A DNA stretch of 64,000 bases from Siphonodentalium dalli (taxonomy: Eukaryota > Mollusca > Scaphopoda > Gadilida > Siphonodentaliidae), in assembly GCA_032622095.1 (NCBI GenBank), contig CP136061.1, forward strand, positions 116,756,754-116,820,753, in the 5' to 3' direction. The notes beneath the pieces were generated by a model. That model worked only from the letters and a program-made list of their open reading frames with translations. It did not search any database and was not told where the DNA came from. The position numbers and the translations under genes were made by a program. Positions 3,170-51,150 of the stretch are shown here, piece by piece (position 1 is the first letter of the stretch; each line of letters begins with the position of its first letter).

Positions 3170-4300
3170 AAGTTAAAACTAACTTTTTTTAAAGGAGAAA
3201 AATATACTGTAGACGAAAATGATAGTCAAAAATAACGGAATTGGTGGTGGCTATTCTCAAATCGACGATAAACGATACCCACCAGTGACTTTTCCCAGAA
3301 ATTAACGATTTTGGTAAAGTGAGCCCTGCGGCTATGTCCTAAGATATTAGCCCACATTGTAGGCGTTAAAATGACTACAGCATACCATATCTGTACCTGA
3401 TATGCAAGAAGTGTTGGTTAATTTGATTTTCGTGCCATTTGGAGCCGAAACATTTATTTTTTGTTGAAAAATCGCTCTTTTTCAAAAGAATTATATTTTT
3501 CGAACATTATCATTCAAACGGATATTGCAATACTATTGAAATATTTAGTCCATATGGTGTAGTAGTTATCTGTCAAGCATATGGAGAAAGAAGTTAACAA
3601 AAATTTTGAACGGTTTGCGAGATATTGGATTTTAGCTACCCCTCCCCCAAACACGTTTTTGGTCGAAAAAAATACATATTTTTGATAATGACATTACAAA
3701 CATTTTCGAATTGATCTGCATGGGACCCAATATGAATCTTGTACTGAAAGTGTTGTCCAGAGATGCCGTTTAATCAATTACAGATGTGTTCAGGCTTTCA
3801 GACCCCAGTTACAACAACAACAATTATTTTATTGATAACAGTTAATTTTGCATGCATTAACATCGATGTTAAGTACTAAAACCTTTGTTATAAACAATAC
3901 GTGACCAACTATATAATTCATATGGCTAAGTAGTTATCTGGACATCACAAGTAGAAAGAATTTGACAGAAATTGTCAACGGTTTTCAAGATATTTGAATT
4001 AGGTACCGCTCCCCCTAATTTGGTAGAAAAACTACATATTTATGATAACAAGACAGACCTTTCTAAATTATTCTAATGAGCATCTAATCATTATTCGTGT
4101 GATGAAAACCTGATCCGTAGACACCGCGAGCCTGGTTTTAGATGACCTCAGGTTTCCAATTAAACCCCCAATTACAACAACAACAACACAATATTTTATT
4201 TATGACATGTAATTTTATATTAACACATATCGACTTTGAGCAACGGAAGTATTTGTTCTAAACGACACATAATATATACTAACATAATCAAACAGAACAA
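3170..4300 (-). repeat. R repeat, copy 1 (inverted relative to copies 2 and 3)
   Basis: 3175-4000 is the reverse complement of 14,000-14,786 along its whole length. For example GCCATTTGGAGCCGAAACAT here matches the complement of the segment near 14,520. 3990-4300 is a more diverged second unit of the 3590-3920 part (both contain the AATTACAACAACAACAA / CAGTTACAACAACAACAA block), so the family itself has an internal tandem unit of about 350-400 bp. No coding potential recognised. Confidence 0.8.
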
Positions 4301-13683: not shown

Positions 13684-14004
13684 TATATTATAACAATATC
13701 CATTTGAATGATAATGTTCGAAAAATAATATTTTTGTGAAAAAGTGCGATTTTTCAGCAAAAAATAAATATCTTGGCTCCAAATGGCAGGAAAATCTAAA
13801 TTAACCAACACTTTTTTTCATATCAGGTAGAAGTATGGTATGGTGTAGTAATTTTAACCCCAACAATATGGGCAAATAGGCTAGGACATAGCCACAGGGC
13901 TCGCTTTACCAAAATCGTTAATTTCTGGAAAAAGTCACTGGAGGGTATCGCTCATCGTCGATTTGACAATAGCCACCACCTATTCCGTTATTTTTCAATT
14001 TCTG
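13684..14004 (+). repeat. R repeat, copy 2, right half
   Basis: Resumes the R sequence (CATTTGAATGATAATGTTCG, CTCCAAATGGCAGGAAAATC, CACTGGAGGGTATCGCTCAT) interrupted at 7794. It corresponds to about 14,445-14,750 of copy 3. It runs directly into copy 3, so copies 2 and 3 were tandem neighbours before LINE A inserted. Confidence 0.8.
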
Positions 14005-14786
14005 TCAAATTCTTTCTACTTGTGTTGTCCAGATAACTACTGAGCCATATATTATATAGTTGGTCACGTTGTTTATAACAAAGGTTTTAGTACTTAACAT
14101 CGATGTTAATGCATGCAAAATTAACTGTTATCAATAAAATAATTGTTGTTGTTGTAACTGTGGGTCTGAAAGCCTGAACACATCTGTAATCGTTTAAACG
14201 GCATCTCTGGACAACACTTTCAGTACAAGATTCATATTGGGTCCCATTCAGATCAATTCAAAAATGTTTGTAATGACATTATCAAAAATATGTATTTTTT
14301 TCGACCAAAAACGTGTTTGGGGGAGGGTAGCTAAAATCCAATATCTCACAAACCGTTCAAAATTGTTGTTAACTTCTTTCTTCATATGCTTGTTCGATAA
14401 CTACTACACCATATGACCTAATTATTTCAATATTATTGCAATAAACGTTTGAATGATAATGTTCGAAAAATATATTTTTTTTGAAAAAGAGTGATTTTTC
14501 AACAAAAAATAAATGTTTCGGCTCCAAATGGCACGAAAATCCAAATTAACCAACACTTCTTGCATATCAGGTACAAATATGGTATGATGTAGTCATTTTA
14601 ACACCAACAATGTGGGCAAATAACTTAGGAAATAGCCGCAGGGCTCACTTTACCAAATCGTTAATTTCTGGGAAAAGTCACTGGTGGGTATCGTTCATCG
14701 TCAATTTGAGAATAGCCACCACCAATTCCGTTATTTTTCACTATCATTTTCGTAAAGAGTATATATTTCTCCTTTAAAAAAAGTTA
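14005..14786 (+). repeat. R repeat, copy 3
   Basis: Reverse complement of 3175-3990. It ends in TTTAAAAAAAGTTAGT at about 14,786, where copy 1 continues further (complement of ACAAGTTAAAACTAAC at 3168-3183). The right end of copy 3 is therefore cut off by LINE B. Confidence 0.8.
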
Positions 14787-17700
14787 GTCAAGCGAATCGA
14801 AATGGTGTCTGTGAACTATAATTACTGTCATGATTGTCCGCGATCGACATGCGTCCCCTTTGGCAACGGCATATATGAAGGAACTATTGTTGATCATATA
14901 CTGATACCAACCTCTTTTATTCCTTTCACGAGAGAGGTCCATGTCTTAGACGATGACGCAATTAATGTGTCAAATCACAGACCGGTTACTTGGAGCGTGA
15001 ACGTTGGATTACGAGATGGTCATAAAACAGAAGACACCGAAAAACGCGTTATCGTAGACTGGAAAAAAGCTAAATCTCAGCCGGAAATCCTTGAAAATTA
15101 TAAACAAATACTTGATTCAGAATTAAACTCATTTGACAAATTAGATAAACAGGAAAACGATGCATGCATAATATATGATTCAATTGTAAATGCAATATCA
15201 AATGCTTCTCAAACAACCTTGCCGAACAAGAAATATAATAAACGACTGAAACCCTTTTGGAATGAACACTTGAAAACTATGCATACAAATATGCGGACTC
15301 TCCGAAAAATTTGGGTGAATGAAGGCAGACCTCGCGCGGACACTCACTCAGAAAGTTACACGAACTATAAACTTGCGAAATGTAATTTCAGGAGAGAATA
15401 CAGAAAAACCTCTGTTCAATACTTGGCCGAACAAAATAATGAAATCGACGAACGCGCACAAATTGATCAGAATTATTTATTTCGCGTATTACATACCAAG
15501 CGTCAGAAAAATCATCTAGATATGAACGCATTTTTCTCTTATGGGGGACAAACTCTTCGGCACGATAACGAAATCGCGGAGGGATGGGCCTCCTACTTTG
15601 AGAAATTATATTCGCCATTGTACAGACCTGAGTTTGACAATAAACACTTCAACTACGTGAATGAATTTGTCACGCGAATAACCACCAGCGACCAAAATGA
15701 TGACAATGAAAATGACATACTCTTTACTGTAACTCCAAACGAATTGCTTTCTGTTTACCGCAGCTTGAGCTTTGGCAAAGCAACTGGTTGGGATGGCATA
15801 TCGAACGAACATTTGATATACGGAAGCCAGAAGTTAACACAGACGGTATCGAATCTCACGACAGTCCTAATTCAAACACAAACGGTCCCACAACAGATGA
15901 AACGTGGTATAATCATAACATTACACAAAGGTGGTTCGAAATCCAGAACTGACTTTGATAGCTACAAGGCTATAACTCTCATGCCCACTCTATACAAGCT
16001 TCTCGAAAAGATTTTACAATCTCGAATAGAACTATACGCTCCAAAATTGCTTGATATACACCCGCTTCAACATGGCTTCCAAAAGGGCATTAGTGCAACT
16101 ATGACGTCATATATAATGAAAGAATGTATTGCGTATGTATCCGAAAGTAAACAAAAGTTGTATAGCCTCTTTTTAGACGTCTGGAAAGCGTTCGATACTG
16201 TCTGGGTTAACGGATTGTTATACAAATTGCACACATGCGGATTCAGAGGAAACTTATTTCGATTGATGCGCGATCTTCTGATCAATGTAACCTGTTCCAT
16301 TCGTCATAACAACGTTTTTTCCAGGTGGTTTGGTGTGCGACAGGGAGCCAGGCAGGGAGGAATCCTCTCGCCGTTGTACTATATGATCTACGTTGACGAG
16401 TTGATACATATCCTTGCAAACTCGCCGTTTGGTTTAAACATGCTCGGTGTAAATTGTACGTCTCCGACACATGCAGACGATATGGTTCTGCTGTCTCTCA
16501 GCAAATCTGGTTTATCAGCACTTTGTGATATTTGCTACGATTACAGTAACAAATGGCGGTATCGATATAACCCAAATAAATGCGCTGTAGTGGTATTTAA
16601 TGAAACTAAATCCGAATTTTCGCGTCAGGATCGACTTTGGAACCTTGGTACCTCAGATGTCAAAGAAACCACCAACATAACTCATTTGGGCATTTATCTT
16701 GATAAGTATGACTTTAATGGAATATTCACAGAGCATATATGCGATAAGACTCGTAGCACGTTTATGATGCTCAACAACGCCGGCCTTTGCCCGGGTGGTA
16801 TGACCCCAACAAGTTGCTCGTTGATATATTCGTCGGTGGTCATACCTAAAGGGCTGTACGGGTCGGAACTTCTCTGGAATTTGAAACAAAAACACGTTGA
16901 TCGCCTGGAACGCACACACAGATTCTGTTTAAAGTATTACCAGGGCCTTCATCGTCGTACAAAAACGGTTATTGCGCAAGGATTAGTCGGAACCTCGTCT
17001 ATGATGTCACTTATCGAAAAACGTAAAATGTCATTCTTCGGCTCTTTGTGCAACTTAAAATCTTCTAAAACTGTGAAACAAGTATTTCTCACGCTCTTAT
17101 ATCAGTATATTGTTGGCACTACATGTTCATCATCAAGTTACATGTCTGACATCATTGACACTCTTAACAAATATGACATGACCGAAGCTCTTGAGAACTA
17201 CATCGAAAATTCAATATTCCCTAAGAAATCCACATGGAACGAATCATGGTCAAAAGTTAATAGAGAATATTGGGACATGAGCGTAAATGAGGATACTCGA
17301 CTTGCCAGGTTCTCTGCCGTCCATCCAACGTTATGCATGTCCCGGCTATGGGAAAATTGTCGCATATACCCAGCCCATAAAAAATCATATCTACTTATTG
17401 CACGCCTTAATTGTATCCTGGAAACAAATGAGGAAACCTGCGTATTATGTGACAACAAACATAAAGATCTTGTAAAACATGCCTTAATCGAATGTTCTTC
17501 CATTTGCGACAATCGAAATACTTTTGAATTCGGGCTACTAAACTTGTTTCATCTAGACATTTATATGCAGTATGACAAACTGGATGTAGAATCCAAAACG
17601 CGCGTTCTACTAACAGGTCTACATGAAAACATATACTGTGCTCCCGAAGAAGAAAAGCAACTAATAGACTTTTTCGTGAACAAAGCTGCATTCCTCTGGA

Positions 17701-17880
17701 GAGTATATGTTGATCGACTGACGCCAAGTCCTGACTAGGTCTCCCAAATCTTCATATAAACTCGATCATAACATGCAGTTATAAGCGTGTTCGTAATTGT
17801 TCATATCACATGTATCTGTGTATTGTTTTACCAGTAAGTACATTAGTCTGTATGTATGTATGTAAAATAAAATATGTTAC
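14787..17880 (+). mobile_element. LINE B: 5'-truncated relative of LINE A
   Basis: Begins inside the endonuclease domain immediately after the R repeat. It carries one long frame and a short 3' region ending in TGTATGTATGTATGTAAAATAAAAT (the last part at about 17,849-17,873). 5' truncation with a simple 3' tail is the normal product of target-primed reverse transcription. I could not identify a target duplication; the R repeat does not visibly resume after 17,880. Confidence 0.8.
14802..17738 (+). CDS. LINE B ORF2 fragment: end of endonuclease + complete reverse transcriptase, open
   Basis: 978 codons without a stop, the longest frame in the window. Residues 1-65 are the tail of the endonuclease (TIVDHILIP, NVSNHRPVTW). 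The linker carries RLKPFWNEHL near 150. The RT has GKATGWDGISNEH near 327, YKAITLMPTLYKLLEK near 388, FLDVWKAFDTVW near 455 and HADDMVLLS near 557. The distal part has YGSELLWNL near 687 and a CVLCDNKHKDLVKHALIEC zinc-like motif near 880. The annotated ATG is only the first Met in the truncated frame; the endonuclease frame is open back to the junction at about 14,787. An intact RT frame suggests relatively recent insertion, but without the endonuclease N terminus or ORF1 this copy cannot be autonomous. Confidence 0.88.
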   Translation: MVSVNYNYCHDCPRSTCVPFGNGIYEGTIVDHILIPTSFIPFTREVHVLDDDAINVSNHRPVTWSVNVGLRDGHKTEDTEKRVIVDWKKAKSQPEILENYKQILDSELNSFDKLDKQENDACIIYDSIVNAISNASQTTLPNKKYNKRLKPFWNEHLKTMHTNMRTLRKIWVNEGRPRADTHSESYTNYKLAKCNFRREYRKTSVQYLAEQNNEIDERAQIDQNYLFRVLHTKRQKNHLDMNAFFSYGGQTLRHDNEIAEGWASYFEKLYSPLYRPEFDNKHFNYVNEFVTRITTSDQNDDNENDILFTVTPNELLSVYRSLSFGKATGWDGISNEHLIYGSQKLTQTVSNLTTVLIQTQTVPQQMKRGIIITLHKGGSKSRTDFDSYKAITLMPTLYKLLEKILQSRIELYAPKLLDIHPLQHGFQKGISATMTSYIMKECIAYVSESKQKLYSLFLDVWKAFDTVWVNGLLYKLHTCGFRGNLFRLMRDLLINVTCSIRHNNVFSRWFGVRQGARQGGILSPLYYMIYVDELIHILANSPFGLNMLGVNCTSPTHADDMVLLSLSKSGLSALCDICYDYSNKWRYRYNPNKCAVVVFNETKSEFSRQDRLWNLGTSDVKETTNITHLGIYLDKYDFNGIFTEHICDKTRSTFMMLNNAGLCPGGMTPTSCSLIYSSVVIPKGLYGSELLWNLKQKHVDRLERTHRFCLKYYQGLHRRTKTVIAQGLVGTSSMMSLIEKRKMSFFGSLCNLKSSKTVKQVFLTLLYQYIVGTTCSSSSYMSDIIDTLNKYDMTEALENYIENSIFPKKSTWNESWSKVNREYWDMSVNEDTRLARFSAVHPTLCMSRLWENCRIYPAHKKSYLLIARLNCILETNEETCVLCDNKHKDLVKHALIECSSICDNRNTFEFGLLNLFHLDIYMQYDKLDVESKTRVLLTGLHENIYCAPEEEKQLIDFFVNKAAFLWRVYVDRLTPSPD

Positions 17881-40804: not shown

Positions 40805-41509
40805 CTATTTGAAATATCACCTAATACGCACACGCTCTTTAAAGGCACGTCTTCAAACAGCTCCGTTATTCGTCAATAAATATTAAGTATCTTACGCTAT
40901 CCAATCGTTTGCGTATTGGCTGGACATATTCAATGAGACACATTCAATATTGTCCTGTGTCAATAGTATCTACATTCGCACGTTAGAAGCACTACTTTAA
41001 ACATCTCCGTTATTTCGTCAATAAGTATTAAGTATCTTCCACTATCAAATCGTGTGCGTATGGGCTGCAATTATTAATTGAAATAGTCCGTGTGTACATA
41101 TAATCTATACATTACCTCGCTGGCCACGAGTTTGGCAGATACGACATAGATACCACATGACGTAGTACCATTCTACACAAAATGAATATCTACATGTAGA
41201 AACAGACTAAGGCGAAAATAATACAATAACACATTCCTGGTAACTGTACAGCTAATTTGTCACTAATGGTATATGGCATATGATCTAGAAGGAACGCTTA
41301 ATTTCTAACACAATATTGAATACACTTCTCATTACGTAGCTCCAATCGGATAATTTTGTCTGAAGCCCAATGTGTGATGACATCCTATATTTATTGCAAA
41401 TGCACATTGATCCACTGGGCTATATTTGCGAAATATAGCAAAGCAGATGTTTCAATTCGGGGGTGGGGTGGGTAGCTGCGTGTTTTCAGGCACCCACCCC
41501 TTTATTTTT
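40805..41509 (+). repeat. 705-bp direct repeat, left copy
   Basis: From CTATTTGAAATATCACC to CACCCACCCCTTTATTTTT, matched over the full length by 42,924-43,627 with about eleven differences (ten substitutions, one single-base gap, by eye). It contains an internal diverged duplication: CTCCGTTATTCGTCAATAAA at 40,860 and CTCCGTTATTTCGTCAATAA at 41,001. The copy ends exactly where LINE C begins. Confidence 0.95.
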
Positions 41510-42923
41510 TAACGAATCGCGGCGTGATTACAATCGTCAACAGCGTAGATGGACGCTTGGCAGAGAAATTATAAAAGAATCCACTGAATGTCGTCACCTT
41601 GGAATAGTTCAGTCAAAATTTGATCACAATACAGTCCGCGCAGACGAAGCATCGCAGAAAATGCGCAGTAGTTACTTTTCGTTAGCAGGCAAAAAATCAC
41701 TTCAGATGGCTACACCAGTTACGATGTGCAAACTACTACACAGTGTCCTTATTCCGAAAGCTCTCTATGGATCTGAGCTTCTATCGAACCCCAACAACGA
41801 ACAGATACACACCATCGAAAAGTCACTTCGCACATGCGTGAAACACATGCAGTCTCTTCCCAGCCGCGCAAGTACAAACCTCTATCTGAGTCTTGTTGGA
41901 ATCATTCCTATTCGAAGGCAGCTTCATTTGAGGAAACTAGCTTTCCTCGCAGATCTAATCCACTTGCCTGCTACAAGAGATATTCCTCTTCGTGTATTCT
42001 TATGTAAACTCTACCACTATAATTTGTTCGGAGTGAAAACCACAGGATTCGTTTCTGACATCATCGATATTCTTAGAATCTATGATCTCGACTCTCACCT
42101 TAACCACTTTCTGTCAAGTGGATTCTTCATGACCAAAGCCAGTTGGAAACGTCTCACAAAAGCAACGGTCAAGGAGCGTCATTTTGAAGAGTGGCTGTCA
42201 TCCTGTGTGAATGCAAATAACCAGATGCGATTTCTTCCACATGCGGTCCCAATGTCATCATGGAGTATATGGAAACTCCTGGCAGATCATCCAGAACAAT
42301 CTCAGGAGTTGAAAAATCTGGCACAGCTTCTCAACCGAACACTCTTCACCAACAATTCTAAATGTAAGCTATGTGGGTGTATATATAACAATGAAATCGA
42401 ACATATCACCTCTTCGTGTAACACTCCTGTCATGCATGCTCTAAGATACCATTACTGGTGCATGATCATAGACCGTTTCGGCACGGATACGTTCGTCACT
42501 CTAGACTCTCTGCATCAAGACCACTTCCATGCGATCCTGTTCGGTGCCGCATTTGGTCGCCAAATTCTTCTCGGAGTTTTGTGGAGCGACTTCATTCTTG
42601 CTTCTGCAACATTCCTCTTCACGTGCACACAACTAATCCGCCCAAGATAACTTATGGGTGTTGCTAGCCCATACGGATGCGAGTGCGCTTCTTTCGTGTG
42701 CCATTTCATTTATTGCACATTTCTGATAATCGCAGGTTCTTCGACGCCTCAACAGTCTGAACTATCTTTCTATATTCTGTTCCTAAATTGCAAAACATGT
42801 ATATATCTTGAAACGATGTACATACCACGCATTATAGGCCATATAATATGTGTGGCCATACGCATAATACACTTGTATATACATATTCTCCTTTATTGGA
42901 GGTAAATAAATAAATAAAATGCA
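41510..42923 (+). mobile_element. LINE C: 5'-truncated LINE bracketed by the 705-bp direct repeats
   Basis: The insert between the two direct repeats starts inside the RT region, contains the C-terminal coding part and about 250 bp of 3' region, and ends in a TAAA tail (GGTAAATAAATAAATAAAAT at 42,901-42,920). 5' truncation at the left edge and a simple tail at the right edge are the two ends of a normal target-primed insertion. The direct repeats therefore sit in the position of a target-site duplication. Confidence 0.85.
41512..42650 (+). pseudogene. LINE C ORF2 C-terminal part
   Basis: The open frame starts upstream at 41,463 inside the direct repeat, so its first 16 codons are not element sequence. 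The element part begins NESRRDYNRQQRRWTLG, equivalent to the NETKSEFSRQDRLWNLG region of LINE B. The YADD-type catalytic centre is already lost. It keeps CRHLGIVQSKFDHNT, IPKALYGSELLSNPN, LYLSLVGIIPI and the CKLCGC...EIEHITSSC zinc-like motif near residue 302 of the frame, and stops at 42,650. No internal stop, so the truncated frame is still fairly fresh. Confidence 0.85.
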
Positions 42924-43627
42924 CTATTTGAAATATCACCTAATACGCACACGATCTTTAAAGGCACGTCTTCAAACAGCTCCGTTATTCGTCAATAAAT
43001 ATTACGTATCTTACGCTATCCAATCGTTTGCGTATTGGCTGGACATATTTAATGAGACACATTCAATATTGTCCTGTGTCAATAGTATCTACATTCGCAC
43101 GTTAGAAGCACTACTTTAAACATCTCCGTTATTTCGTCAATAAGTATTAAGTATCTTCCACTATCAAATCGTGTGCGTATGGGCTGCATTATTAATTGAA
43201 ATAGTCCGTGTGTACATATAATCTATACATTACCTCGCTGGCCACAAGTTTGGCAAATACGACATAGATACCACATGACGTAGTACCATTCTACACAAAA
43301 TGAATATCTACATGTAGAAACAGAATAAGGCGAAAATAATACAATAACACATTCCTGGTAACTGTACAGCTAATTTGTCACTAATGGTATATGGCATATG
43401 ATCTAGAAGGAACGCTTAATTTCTAACACAATATTGAATACACTTCTCATTACGTAGCTCCAATCGGATAAGGATGTCTGAAGCCCAATGTGTGATGACA
43501 TCCTATATTTATTGCAAATGCACATTGATCCACTGGGCTATATTTGCGAAATATAGCAAAGCAGATGTTTCAATTCGGGGGTGGGGTGGGTTGCTGCGTG
43601 TTTTCAGGCACCCACCCCTTTATTTTT
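42924..43627 (+). repeat. 705-bp direct repeat, right copy
   Basis: Second copy of 40,805-41,509, one base shorter (GCTGCATTATT against GCTGCAATTATT) and about 98 percent identical. It starts immediately after the LINE C tail. Confidence 0.95.
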
Positions 43628-43759: not shown

Positions 43760-46700
43760 TTAACCCACCATGCCTGATGCTTCCTGAATGTTTCCGAAAA
43801 CCCTGAGCAAATGCATTTTCATATATATGCGAGTCTCCCGTAGGGAGCCTCGCATATATAAGATAATACATTGGCCTAACAATATTAAACTTGACCTCGT
43901 AATCCAGTATTTTTACATACCCCACAGGAGACTCGCATATATACGAGAATGCACTGGCACATGATACTTAATGCTGCACCAGCACATCTTCAGTCATGAA
44001 ATAATTAAGGTTAACTGAAATGTTTGTCAATCACCGATTTGTAGACAAGTTTCAAACTATATATATGAATAATAACCGTTTTTGGAGGTTTTGCTATCTT
44101 CAAGATACATGTAGTTGTTATACTCTCTTCCTAGATCTGGCAATATTAACACACGAGAAAAAGTACGAAGTATTATCAATGATGTTTTGATGATAAGTTA
44201 ACGATTAAAAATGCCATGTTAATACTATAGAGACAGATGCAAGGAAGTAAGAACAGACCAGAGCCACGAGTACATCTTCGTTGCGTTTCAAAGCTTTAAC
44301 TAATTTCATGACCGGAGCAGCGCTGGTGCAGCATTAATGATAAAGGCAATATATTCTGTTATATATGCGAGTCTCCAATATGGAGCATCGCATATAGAAG
44401 ATAATGCACTGGTTTACAATGTCAATGTAAATATTGTTAGGACAATGTATAATTATACGAGGCTCACTGTTAGTCCAGTGCATTTATGGTTTTACCCAGA
44501 ACTAATTGCAACAGAATTTTTTTTTGCTGGAATTGGTACATATACCCTCCATAAACAACATACTAAAAATCGGCAAAAATCGGAAAAAGGGAAATTAGTG
44601 AATTTCGTGAAAAAAAATTGAGAAAATTTGGTCAAATCATCAATTTATGGGTTTTCATGAATGTATATAAAAAATTCAAATTTACAAGTCCTACAAATAT
44701 CATGCCTATTTTGTCGACCACATTTTCCTGAATCCAGAACTGGAAACCATTCCCAGATTCCTTAAGTATTTTTCGAGTTGTGTGCCTTCAAAAACGCGAG
44801 TTTACCTGATTTCGGAGCCTTAATTTCGCAGAATGAGCCAAATGCCGTATTATATGGTTAATTATTTAAAAAACTAGAGCAAAATTAATTACTTTTACAC
44901 TGTTTTAGTAATTTCCTCACTAGATAAAACACAAAATATGATTAATATGTGCATCTATGAATAAGGAAAATAAAATATTCTCAAACAAAATGTGTGTTCC
45001 ATTGTATGGACTTAGCCAAATTTGCCTTGACACAGAACTCGTGTGATGAAATGCCATATTTGAGGTCATGTAACTCAATAAATTAATATCCATATGCTCT
45101 GCTTTTCTCATAACATTTTGAGAATACTAGATTGAACAAATTGTGAAGGAATTTCCAAATACATTGGTGAAGAAAATAAAATTATGGTCCTATGAACTCT
45201 TAGTCTAGCCTCTTTTTCCGAAAATGCTATTGTGGGACGTTTTTGTCAATTTTAAAAGGATTTTAGGCATATTCAGAAAAATTAATGAAAGTTTATTGTG
45301 TAAGATTATGTGATCTGTCTTCTTAAATCATTTTTTTGTTGAGAAAATAGCATTTCAATGGTTATACCAATGAATGTCACTGGATTTCACTCATCATTGT
45401 GGAAACATACTCCAAATTTGAACGGCAGAAAAATGGGGTAGGGGAAAGCATATCAACAAAATCTTAAAAATTATGCATCTTGAAGCAGAAAACTTTATAT
45501 TAACAGTTTCTGCTTACATTGTTCTTTCATACATAATTTCATATTTCCTTTGTTTATGTTTATTGACAGAGCTATAATATTTTTTGTCATAATTTGGCAG
45601 TGAAATGTCAAATTGGCTATTTTGAGATTGTTTTATACAACATAACCATACAATTCTAAATCAACGTCCGATCATGTATTAAGCAGTTTTATAATGCAAC
45701 AGGAATGTACACAAACTGGAAGAAAACAACATTGTGTCTGAAATGGCTGTAATTTGGTGATAAGATTGCATTTTGTGATTTTTCCTACCCCTATACCAAC
45801 GTTAAAATATGGAGTCAGTTTCCTGAAAAATGAAAAAAATCAAGTGAAATACTATGGCATAACCAATGTTAGGCTAATTTTTTATCACTAAATTGTTGTG
45901 GGAGGAAAGTTCAAATAATTTTACACATTAAAACACCCATTGTTTTTTGTTTTTATGGCCCAAAACCTTTTAGATTGGACAAAAATGCCTCAAACTGGCA
46001 TCTTTGGAAACAATCTAAAACTAAGTATTCAAAGGGCCATAAGTTGATTTTCTTAAATAATGTCCTGTTAATACCTTTACATTTTGTTCAATCCAACATA
46101 CTTAAAAGGTTATAAGAAAAGCATGGCATATGGGTATTAAATTATTGAGTTACATGACCTCAAATATTGCATTTCATCACACACGTTCAGTGTCAGAGGC
46201 AAAATTGGCCAAGTCCATACAGTGGAACACACATTTTGTTTGAGAATATAATCTTCTTCTTAATTATAGATACACATATTAATCATATTTTTGTGTTTAA
46301 TCTAGTGAGGAAATTACTATAACACTGAAAAATCCCTTCAGTTCGCTCTAGTTTTTTAAATAATTAATCATAAATAAGGCATTTTGGCTCATTCTTCGAA
46401 ATTGAGGCCCCGAAAATGGGCCGAAATCAGGTAAACTCGCGTTTTTGAAGGCACACAACTCGAAAAATACGTAATGAATCTGGGACTGGTTTTCAGTACT
46501 GGGTTCAGGAAATTGAGGTCGATACAATATACATACCATTTGTAGGATTTGTGAATTTGATTGTTTTTATATGCATCCATGAAAATCCATAAATTGATGA
46601 TTTGACCAAATTTCCCAAAATTTATTTCACGAAATTCACCAATTTCCCTTTTTCCGATTTTTGCCGATTTTTAGTATGTTGTTTATGGAGGGTTTATGTA

Positions 46701-46860
46701 CTTATTCCAGCAAAAAAAAATTCTGTTGCAATTAGTTCCGGGTGTGGCATTTTTTTCTCATAAATGCACTGGACTATGTGGAAGACTCGCATTTATAAGA
46801 TAATGTATTGGCACAGGGTTTTCGAAACATTTCAGGAAGCTCCAGACATGGAAGGGTTAA
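43760..46860. mobile_element. 3.1-kb piggyBac-type foldback element, TTAA target
   Basis: Flanked by TTAA (43,760-43,763 and 46,857-46,860) with ends CCCACCATGCCTG...CTTCCTGAA on the left and the complement CCCTTCCATGTCTGG...CTTCCTGAA on the right. TTAA duplications with CCC...GGG ends are the piggyBac signature (family knowledge). Most of its length is two long inverted arms (about 44,470-45,440 and 45,760-46,760, imperfect). They pair blocks such as GAACTAATTGCAACAGAATT, ATACTAAAAATCGGCAAAAA and GAGTTGTGTGCCTTCAAAAA with their complements. The left arm also carries hairpins at 43,822-43,862 and 44,358-44,397 and a nested insert. No transposase frame seen. Non-autonomous. Confidence 0.85.
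43977..44337. mobile_element. Nested MITE in the left arm of the foldback element
   Basis: TTAATGCTGCACCAGC at 43,978 is matched by its exact complement GCTGGTGCAGCATTAA at 44,322-44,337. The inner parts also pair: TCATGAAATAATTAA on the left against the complement of TTTAACTAATTTCATGA on the right. The right arm of the host element lacks this stretch. TGATA occurs at both flanks (43,972 and 44,338) as a possible short target duplication. Confidence 0.65.
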
Positions 46861-48523: not shown

Positions 48524-49449
48524 TTAAATTAGCGTAGCAGTTTGTAGAACAGTACGTGACACACACACCCTGGAACTTGGCTCCGAAAAATATCAGTGGC
48601 AAACATGGTGACTTGTACTGAATACTCATCAAGCGTATATACGCCGCAACAACGTTTCCGCGCGGAGGTTGAGCTCGCCGAGTTAGAACGTAATATACGT
48701 GGGCCTTAGAATTAGATCGATGATTGATCACGCTTGGCAGAGCGCCAAAACGAATCTATTGCTTGGCTTGGCTTGTACACGTATCACGAATGGCTATGAA
48801 CCAATATGTGAATTCCGGGAGAGTTAATGAATAATATTGTAACTAATGACACATAAACTTAGCTTGTTGCATCTGTACTGTCGTTATGGATTCTTGATAG
48901 GTATTTGGAGGATAACTTTGAATAAATAATAACTGATATACAATCACAATAATACCATTCCCTGGTGTTGCGAGCGTACATTTTTATGGCAGTACATCGG
49001 TCACAGTCTGGGACTTATTGTCAGTATGTGGCTTTAGATATATATGTCGTCACCTTACATTCGAACGGACGTAAGTCGGTTTTTTTAGGAGAGACAGAAA
49101 AACTTATTTATTTTAATATGGCTGTTTATAAAGTGTAACACATGTCTGAAGAGAGACAAACAGACCGTTTGAGAATATATAACTTGATCCTTAGCCGACC
49201 TAATACGCCGCAAGTTACAGTATCACCCAAAATGTATTTTGACACAAGCTGAAGCTCTGGTAGAAAATCAGATTTTTGTGACATAACTACTCATGTCCCA
49301 TTATATTCCCATAACTTGATTCTAGGACATATAACACGACGTGTATATAATATCACTGTCCATATAGGTAGAACCCCAAACTCTAATATCCGTGTTCGGT
49401 TCCTTAGAGAGAGATATGTTTATTCCTCCAAATATGGAGACCATTATGG

Positions 49450-51150
49450 TACAATATATATATATACAAAAGTTACATGAAGACATATATACACATGCAA
49501 TATAATTTAACTTGAGAAATTCATTGTGGGAATGATATACTGCAAGACAAGATTTTTAAGACAAATATATAGTGAAGTATCCGATATCATAAAACTTAGT
49601 CAGAACACAGGATGAAAATAAACCTCACACATCGTTTGAAAAGACGATATTCATCACAAATCAGTTCAATTTGCATTGGGATACACCCTCCTAGGCAAAA
49701 CGCAAGGAATGTATCGCTATTCATGCTGTCAAGAAAGGTAAAAGTTTCAATTCCAAATATGTCAATCAGTGAATACCAAAATGTGTTCCGTACCATCTGT
49801 GCAAACTCAGATGTACATTCGAGATATCTATGAAACAAGAAATTTGAATATGTTTGGTTGCAGCGATTGCATTCAGCGTCATTGTCATACGTGGTTTTGG
49901 TCAAAATATTGGCCATCTTGATACAAATTGGAAAATACTCAGGTTCTTCTCGAGAGAGCTGCCAAAGTTTCCACAGTGACTGGTTGTCGGGTTTTACCTT
50001 GAAGAGAAAAGATAGAGAATCGTCTCTCTGACCACGCTGACTCACTTCGCGTGAGTAGTGAGCAGAGAGACAATCTCTGACAATTTTCTTCCAAGTGGAC
50101 TGGGTAGGGAAGAAACCCGTTTCCGTAAAAGATGGAAGATAATGGTATAAGTTGAATTTATGGAGAGTATCAGATATATCTTCTAGAAATCCTGTCATCG
50201 GGCGACCGTATATTCGATTACCGTGATAATTGAATAGGAATACACCCAGAGCTGCTCTGTGATTCCGTGGTAAGTTAATCAGTGTTCCAAGAAACAATAA
50301 TTTTCTCCGCTGAATTTCGTACTCTATAGGGAGAAGTCCGAGTAGTGATAGGGATAATATTGTATTACTGCGTTTCGGAATGCGCTGTAAATTCTTAACA
50401 CACATGCGATAAGCGCGTTCTATCATGGTATATTGCGCATGTGACAAATCCCACCATGATTCACAGCCATAAAGAGCTTTGGGAATAACGATATGTTTAA
50501 GAATCTTTAGGTTGGTTAAAGGAGAGAACTCGGTTGTAACAGGTGAGCGACAAGCTGAGAAGAATACTTTGCGTAGCATATCAGTAGCCTTCTCAACTTT
50601 CGGATTCTGTTTACCAGACGAGCTCTGAATATTACCCAGATGAGAGACTTCTTCTACTTTGGCGATATGTCTGGGTCCGAGCTCCCATGGTCTATCCTCA
50701 GTGTGACGCCGGCATTGGGGGGTGCCAATTACAACAACTTTGCTTTTCTCGTGTGAGAACTCGAAGCGCCACTTTAAACTATATAGGTGACATATGTTGA
50801 GGAGTCTACGGAGACCTCCGTCTGTGAATGAGAGAATAGTTATGTCATCAGCCGTCGTAGGGGACGAACATGAAATAGAGCTAATGTGAACGCCATCACG
50901 TGTATCTGACAGGGATTCCACAAGTTCATCAATAAAGACAAGATACAAGAAGGGCGACATTACCACTCCTTGCCTTGTTCCTTGCTCCACCGTGAAGGCT
51001 TCCGATGTTATCCCATTACAGAGAACATGGCTCTGTACATCTGAGTACATGTTTGAAATGACTCTGAGCATAGCGCCCGTTACACCTTTTTGAGATAATT
51101 TATAGATGAGCCCTTCATGCCAAACGCGATCAAAGGCTTTCTCGGATAGT
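49450..51150 (-). mobile_element. LINE D: 5'-truncated LINE, antisense in the putative lectin intron
   Basis: Minus-strand element of the A/B/C lineage. Its 3' end carries a TATATATATA run at 49,456-49,466 (plus coordinates) and its 5' end is truncated near 51,150, just before the SEKAFDRVW block. Target duplication not identified. Confidence 0.75.
49596..51150 (-). pseudogene. LINE D ORF2 fragment: reverse transcriptase from the catalytic core to the C terminus
   Basis: The frame is open for 528 codons from 51,182, but only the part from about 51,150 is element sequence. It shows SEKAFDRVWHEGLIYKL, QGTRQGVVMSPFLYLVFIDE and TADDITILS (Thr before ADD). Further on come IPKALYGCESWWDLS, LSLSLLGLLPI and a CNRCNQTYSNFLFHRYLEC zinc-like motif, with a stop at 49,596. 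No internal stops. It differs clearly in sequence from LINEs A-C and so represents another subfamily. It lies opposite to the lectin gene's direction, between the candidate Thr exon and the first lectin exon. Confidence 0.85.

Follow-up and report, generated by a model that had tools for sequence, protein, structure and literature searches.

The locus analyzed here, in the genome of the scaphopod mollusc Siphonodentalium dalli, raises the question of how a LINE comes to lie between two near-identical direct repeats of 705 bp. The usual target-site duplication (TSD) of LINEs is 10 to 20 bases long. In the original prediction, made from the letters of the window (the whole stretch of 64,000 nucleotides that was analyzed), the repeats were read as a TSD of exceptional length, produced by the insertion of the LINE in a single odd event. 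The genome searched for further cases is represented by one assembly of 2,226,750,531 b in 9 contigs, in which the window is located at 116.76 Mb of C1.

The repeats and their borders

Global alignment of the two repeats (705 b on the left, 704 b on the right), which had been proposed with the prediction, yields 694 identities among 704 aligned bases; the differences are 10 mismatches, three of which are adjacent (TTT/GGA at 41354-41356), and a single one-base gap. Given the BLAST E value of 0.0, the match is not due to chance. Both copies abut the edges of the intervening element, LINE C, the left one ending at 41509 and the right one beginning at 42924 (Table 1), with a 4-nt overlap at the 5′ edge and a 5-nt gap at the 3′ edge; the repeats thus bracket the LINE and are placed like a TSD, as claimed.

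LINE C is 5′-truncated, because its frame begins downstream of the reverse transcriptase (RT) domain. The open reading frame (ORF) in the window has no Pfam match of its own, and the related LINE D (see below) has RVT_1. Other family copies, up to 98% identical to LINE C, extend upstream of its 5′ edge. The 3′ end is complete, the terminal hairpin and the (TAAA)4 tail being common to family copies.

The 5′ edge of the element was placed at 41506, the start of the six leftmost among the 21 family alignments listed. Given that the 705-bp unit ends with five T, that family copies carry five T before AACG and that the junction contains six T, target and LINE share a 4-nt T microhomology at this joint. 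At the opposite edge, the five nucleotides ATGCA separate the fourth TAAA of the tail from the right copy, so that the exact start of the latter is uncertain by a few bases; ATGCA is either filler or the decayed start of the duplication (the left flank reads ATAC).

A short second duplication directly flanking LINE C inside the repeats, named at the outset as evidence that would speak against a long TSD, was not found above chance level. The inner matches comprise one of 6 nt, which is located away from the edges, and TATTT, 3-6 nt from each edge. Swapped flanks of other copies (see below) often match over 5 nt as well; accordingly, a short inner TSD of LINE C was rejected.

Table 1. Features of the LINE C locus (window positions) and long duplications at other copies of the family
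Feature	Position	Strand	Evidence or description
Left copy of the putative TSD	40805..41509	+	694/704 identical to right copy; two full-length genome matches listed
4-nt T microhomology, target/LINE 5′ junction	41506..41509	+	T-run counts in the unit, the family copies and the junction
5′-truncated LINE C (C-terminal ORF part, 3′ UTR, tail)	41510..42919	+	At least 42 genome matches; 21 loci align at the 5′ edge, many continue upstream
LINE C ORF, 379 aa + stop, C-terminal to RT domain	41511..42650	+	33% identical to the LINE D ORF across 347 aa
3′-terminal hairpin CTCC-TTTATT-GGAG	42888..42901	+	Fold; LINE D hairpin at the same place; kept in many family copies, changed in some
(TAAA)4 tail	42903..42918	+	TAAA-repeat tail in most family copies listed
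ATGCA between tail and right copy	42919..42923	+	Sequence
Right copy of the putative TSD	42924..43627	+	Alignment with left copy
L020			275 bp, 96%, within 1-2 nt of both edges
L014			217 bp; small insert in right copy; templated filler at 5′ joint
L031			Left copy 651 bp; right copy retains first 27 and last 130 bp
L040			117-119 bp, 97-98%
L039	G000:C4:264250700-264255600		TSD-LINE-TSD-LINE-TSD; TSDs ~393-411 bp; both LINEs with the same 5′ truncation
L035			~101 bp duplication, in tandem repeats
L036			672 bp left, ~460 bp right; anchored at both edges only in pieces; in tandem repeats

Long duplications across the LINE C family

The genome search with LINE C gave at least 42 matches at 41 places (40 of the 245 first-look candidates were scored), and the survey set consists of 27 family copies with both edges readable. 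Left out were longer copies with the 5′ edge beyond the locus (L012, L013, L015, L016, L018, L019, L022 and L029), 3′-truncated copies (L023, L038 and L047), the copy at C6:61079685 and L045, a duplicate of L044; two matches at L039 were counted as one insertion. The automatic rule called for a repeat of at least 30 bp whose left copy ends no more than 20 nt from the 5′ edge and whose right copy begins between 20 nt upstream and 45 nt downstream of the 3′ edge. As a control, each left flank was paired with the right flank of every other copy, which makes 702 swapped pairs.

Seven of the 27 copies pass this rule (L009, which is the window copy, L014, L020, L031, L035, L039 and L040) compared to none of the 702 swapped pairs, the own flanks having been extended 14 nt past the edges and the swapped flanks cut at them. 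L037 was included in the automatic long-repeat and short-TSD counts with a misplaced 5′ edge (internal deletion); with the right edge, it has no long repeat. A clean long duplication at both edges is present in six of the 27 copies, the window copy included (705, ~650, ~400, 275, 217 and ~118 bp), two copies lie in tandem repeats, two are anchored at one edge, and the remaining 17 show none. The search for related LINEs with long duplications that had been suggested along with the prediction therefore changes one part of it: the duplication, treated there as a single odd event, recurs in the family.

The two copies in tandem repeats (L035 and L036) were kept apart because neighbouring tandem-repeat units could imitate a TSD. 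Of the copies anchored at one edge, L011 is anchored at the 5′ edge only, with ~375 bp in two pieces, and its right copy is separated from the tail by 1062 bp of unrelated sequence. The other, L010, resembled a multi-kb TSD but was not counted: another copy farther upstream and 776 bp without a match beside the LINE give it the look of a local segmental repeat. The locus could represent a multi-kb TSD within a segmental array. In this region (G000:C4:235197265-235212373, with L010, L048, L059 and L060), the LINE C copy is found beside kb-scale direct repeats, 95-98% identical, both upstream and downstream.

All eight anchored copies, namely L009, L014, L020, L031, L035, L036, L039 and L040, carry a TAAA-type tail at the 3′ edge. 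Eight left borders, positioned manually and uncertain by a base or two, are preceded by a pyrimidine in 8/8 and followed by A in 6/8, and several 5′ joints show microhomology or templated filler. At the six clean loci the targets lie outside arrays; the target of L039 has one further partial match of 66 b. The two LINEs of L039 differ at 2/686 bases, and its outer TSDs at 9/390 aligned bases plus gaps, a pattern that is expected if unequal exchange between the long TSDs built the array later, which is its likely origin.

Among the 17 copies without a long duplication, 5 kb upstream and a right flank of ~1.5 kb were read in 13 (L017, L021, L024, L025, L026, L027, L030, L032, L034, L028, L037, L042 and L043), and no anchored long repeat was found there; L033, L041, L044 and L046 were read in shorter flanks only. 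Weak repeats at L034 (47-51 b, 74-81%), located 24-29 nt after the tail and with many left matches, and a 47-b match at L024 that ends at the limit of the flank examined, were counted as none. In the same 17 copies and L010, no short TSD above chance was detected either, as judged from the best exact match at the edges: this match is shorter than 4 nt in 10 copies, 4 nt long in four, 5 nt in two and 6 nt in two, compared to 4 nt or more in 179 of 306 swapped pairs, which reach up to 13 nt. A short TSD could have decayed in the old copies L041 (83%), L033 (88%) and L046 (89%).

LINE D and other repeats of the window

The LINE D ORF (49.6-51.2 kb) is the relative of the LINE C ORF compared in Table 1. 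In the search with LINE D, the 40 scored of 880 candidates are 94-100% identical. The element of the window (49415-51142, minus strand) belongs to a very young family, with at least 20-odd of the 40 scored copies 99-100% identical. Ten insertions, representing 11 of the 40 matches, were examined, eight of them with both edges (all but Df and Di). Among the eight, a clean long TSD of 264 bp (99.2%) is present in one, located at C7:175.47 Mb. In the remaining seven, among them the window's LINE D, none was seen in left flanks of ~0.4-1.5 kb and right flanks of ~1 kb, and the longest short match is 5 nt, with 7 nt reached among 56 swapped pairs. A long TSD is thus not the rule, given that 17/27 LINE C and 7/8 LINE D copies show none in the flanks read.

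A pair of identically truncated LINE D copies, 1.7 kb apart and with a flanking repeat of 162 bp (91%), lies at G000:C7:144552800-144558770. This pair at C7:144.55 Mb was rejected as a long-TSD array, being better read as a tandem duplication through the 162-bp repeat.

The window contains further repeats. LINE A (13685-14788, minus strand), which encodes an APE endonuclease (Exo_endo_phos) and an RT, and LINE B (14778-17738, plus strand) are in a head-to-head arrangement in which the 5′ parts of the two meet near 14,780. The stretch 13996-14788 recurs in inverted orientation at 3178-3974 (94%). A large inverted repeat with arms of ~950 b and 81% identity spans 44471-46776.

The 705-bp unit in the genome

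Among the genome matches listed, only the two copies in the window cover the 705-bp unit over its full length; as the search skips very common words, this is not an absolute count. Many genomic copies of the unit, another finding that the prediction had named as contrary to a TSD, were accordingly not seen, and the unit as a whole was rejected as a dispersed element, a third full-length copy being absent from the matches listed. At least 51 partial matches of 30-110 b, with 75-98% identity, fall within residues 14-276 of the unit (40 of 234 candidates scored), and the loci of this short dispersed repeat that were looked at (L003-L008) do not share the borders of the unit. Two diverged copies of the short repeat, 144-145 bp apart and ~81% identical, occupy 40833-41081 of the window. 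The unit also contains inverted repeats. Searches with Rfam (gathering threshold), for tRNAs (bacterial code) and for viral contigs gave no matches. The best reading of the unit is that of ordinary target DNA carrying an old short repeat, rather than that of a mobile element.

Age of the LINE and of the duplication

In the clean cases, the difference within the TSD pairs is 0.7-2.9%; the distance of the LINE copies of these cases from their nearest copy, over the last 640 b, is on this scale (1.1-2.4%). In a simulation in which indels were ten times rarer than substitutions, the probability that the LINE C ORF is open is 0.32 at 0.71% divergence per lineage and 0.007 at 3%; a much older LINE is unlikely, since the ORF still is open. 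Taken with the open frame, the similar distances of TSD pairs and LINE copies fit one age for the LINE and the duplication. Part of the mismatch within the TSD could have arisen during gap filling.

A model of the insertion

The best reading of the 705-bp repeat pair is a TSD made by the insertion of LINE C, the reading that the prediction had offered; the abutment at both edges, the recurrence in the family and the lack of an inner short TSD support it. With a probability of about 0.88, we propose target-primed reverse transcription of LINE C with a distant second-strand break, giving rise to the 705-bp duplication, and the same outcome in its relatives. In the order of steps that we infer, a bottom-strand nick by the LINE endonuclease at the unit's left border would come first, and copying of the RNA tail would start there, as suggested by the hairpin and the TAAA tail at the 3′ edge. 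Reverse transcription would then stop early, and the end of the truncated cDNA would join the top-strand 3′ end ~705 nt downstream via the microhomology of four T, whereupon fill-in between the two breaks would double the stretch. Rather than being made close to the first nick, the second-strand cut would be taken from any nick, gap or break available at a distance. In the clean LINE C cases, the second break corresponds to a position ~118 to 705 bp downstream.

A 3′ tail combined with a truncated 5′ end that shows microhomology or templated filler bears the usual marks of target-primed reverse transcription with annealing-type 5′ joining (PMC4245944). Under the prevailing model, the site of the second-strand break sets the length of the duplication (PMC2666801), and the distance of this break has been argued to be usually fixed by the LINE species (PMC4245944). 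The LINE C element might leave the second cut undirected, such that a chance nick, a gap or a sister-chromatid break downstream would yield a long TSD, and trimmed ends would yield none.

An extension of this model, the odds of which we put at even, is that these elements represent a lineage without positioned second-strand cleavage, in which insertions would end as duplications of hundreds of bases, or with none or a deletion, and not as short TSDs. The long duplications would then act like LTRs: recombination between them would produce tandem LINE arrays (as at L039) and presumably also remove LINEs, a single copy of the duplication being left as a scar. The lineage would be a natural germline counterpart of what repair-deficient cells have shown.

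Alternative explanations

The alternative that survives best concerns the cause of the long duplications and not the TSD reading: the host, and not the LINE, might be responsible, if LINE intermediates of every kind are resolved in the germline by way of distant second breaks, for instance owing to weak nucleotide-excision repair (NER) at the cDNA flap. Every LINE family of the animal would then show long duplications. Both LINE C and LINE D, with proteins only 33% identical, do show them, although the two may belong to one clade and thus do not separate host from element; furthermore, L1 TSDs in NER-deficient human cells, in the part of the report available, range from 5 bp to 5.3 kb with a median of 1495 bp (PMC5223499). 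Nothing speaks directly against a host cause, although no clear duplication was seen at LINE A and LINE B of the window, whose edges lacked definition. We regard it as a real possibility, somewhat short of even odds.

Under a second alternative, the LINE cDNA was captured at a break independently of the endonuclease, the duplication being due to break repair alone. The microhomology or templated filler at several 5′ joints would suit such capture, but the TAAA-type tails of all eight anchored copies are expected for copying that starts at the tail, and capture appears unlikely.

The mismatch of 1.4% between the repeats lies within the heterozygosity known for many marine invertebrates, so two haplotypes, with and without the LINE, might have been laid end to end in the assembly. 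However, the false join would have to coincide with the LINE's own edge, and several widely separated loci share this structure, with differing lengths and identities; one locus has the order TSD-LINE-TSD-LINE-TSD. An assembly artefact is accordingly rejected as very improbable.

Only a slim chance attaches to a tandem duplication of 705 bp that arose first and received the LINE later, exactly on the junction and without a duplication of its own. It would account for the lack of an inner short TSD above chance, and insertions devoid of TSDs may be common in the LINE C family; yet the exact junction would have been needed each time. The six clean loci all have it, compared to 0/702 among swapped flanks, and the clean targets are not in arrays. 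This recurrence at the edges of several loci led to the rejection of a pre-existing tandem duplication.

The least credible alternative regards the 705-bp unit as a transposable element or terminal repeat in its own right, present as independent flanking insertions or as part of one composite element, which its inverted repeats and the dispersed matches of residues 14-276 might suggest, but which is contradicted by the lack of a third full-length copy among the matches listed in 2.23 Gb, by the different borders of the dispersed loci and by the absence of an anchored repeat common to the flanks of different copies (0/702). Nor were terminal repeats common to the copies, as in an LTR retrotransposon, seen among the same 702 flank pairs, none of which has an edge-anchored repeat.

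Comparison with known systems

How LINEs make the second cut is an open question, for which young copies with duplications of 100-700 bp offer a natural set for reading how far away the second break lies and what its sequence is. Such copies also show LINEs as a source of local duplications that are able to recombine.

The closest parallels, described here from the accessible parts of the cited reports, come mostly from cell culture. In wild-type DT40 cells, one of 25 inserts of ZfL2-2, a LINE of the L2 clade, had a TSD longer than 20 bp, namely 1228 bp, and the other 24 showed short alterations (PMC2666801). Like LINE C, this insert lies between long direct repeats of the target; the ZfL2-2 case, however, is 1/25 in chicken cell culture, whereas LINE C shows 6/27 clean cases in the germline and no short TSD above chance. 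For L1, TSDs longer than 100 bp never exceeded 10% of events in HeLa cells but formed the majority in NER-deficient cells (4/7, 21/23 and 22/28), compared to 3/9 in complemented cells, and a distant, unrelated nick was suggested as the second nick (PMC5223499). The likeness to LINE C lies in TSDs of up to 5.3 kb and in the supposed distance of the second nick; the differences are the repair defect in culture, the L1 clade and a usual range of 5-30 bp (PMC5223499). In tumours, L1-mediated tandem duplication of 22.6 Mb has been described, where the target is likewise duplicated with the LINE at the junction, under a model in which the cDNA joins a downstream break of the sister chromatid, but the scale is that of megabases and the event is somatic (PMC7058536).

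The nearest natural case is R9 of rotifers, a LINE with a long TSD of 126 bp (cited in the available part of PMC6895275); R9 is rDNA-specific by its title and a single length is given, whereas the sites and the lengths vary in LINE C. Otherwise, in the open-access literature, represented mostly by titles and abstracts, no natural LINE family with recurrent, variable TSDs of hundreds of bases was found, and the accessible text of PMC1925062 yielded no TSD terms. Families similar to LINE C could have been missed and scored as devoid of TSDs, because surveys, in the parts available, restrict TSD length to 30 or 49 bp, with windows of 5-30 bp (PMC2912911), 10-49 bp (PMC13295347) and, for high-quality calls, 10-30 bp (PMC13174262). 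Long LINE TSDs, up to 5.3 kb in cell culture, are thus already known; the new part is their recurrence in a germline LINE family.
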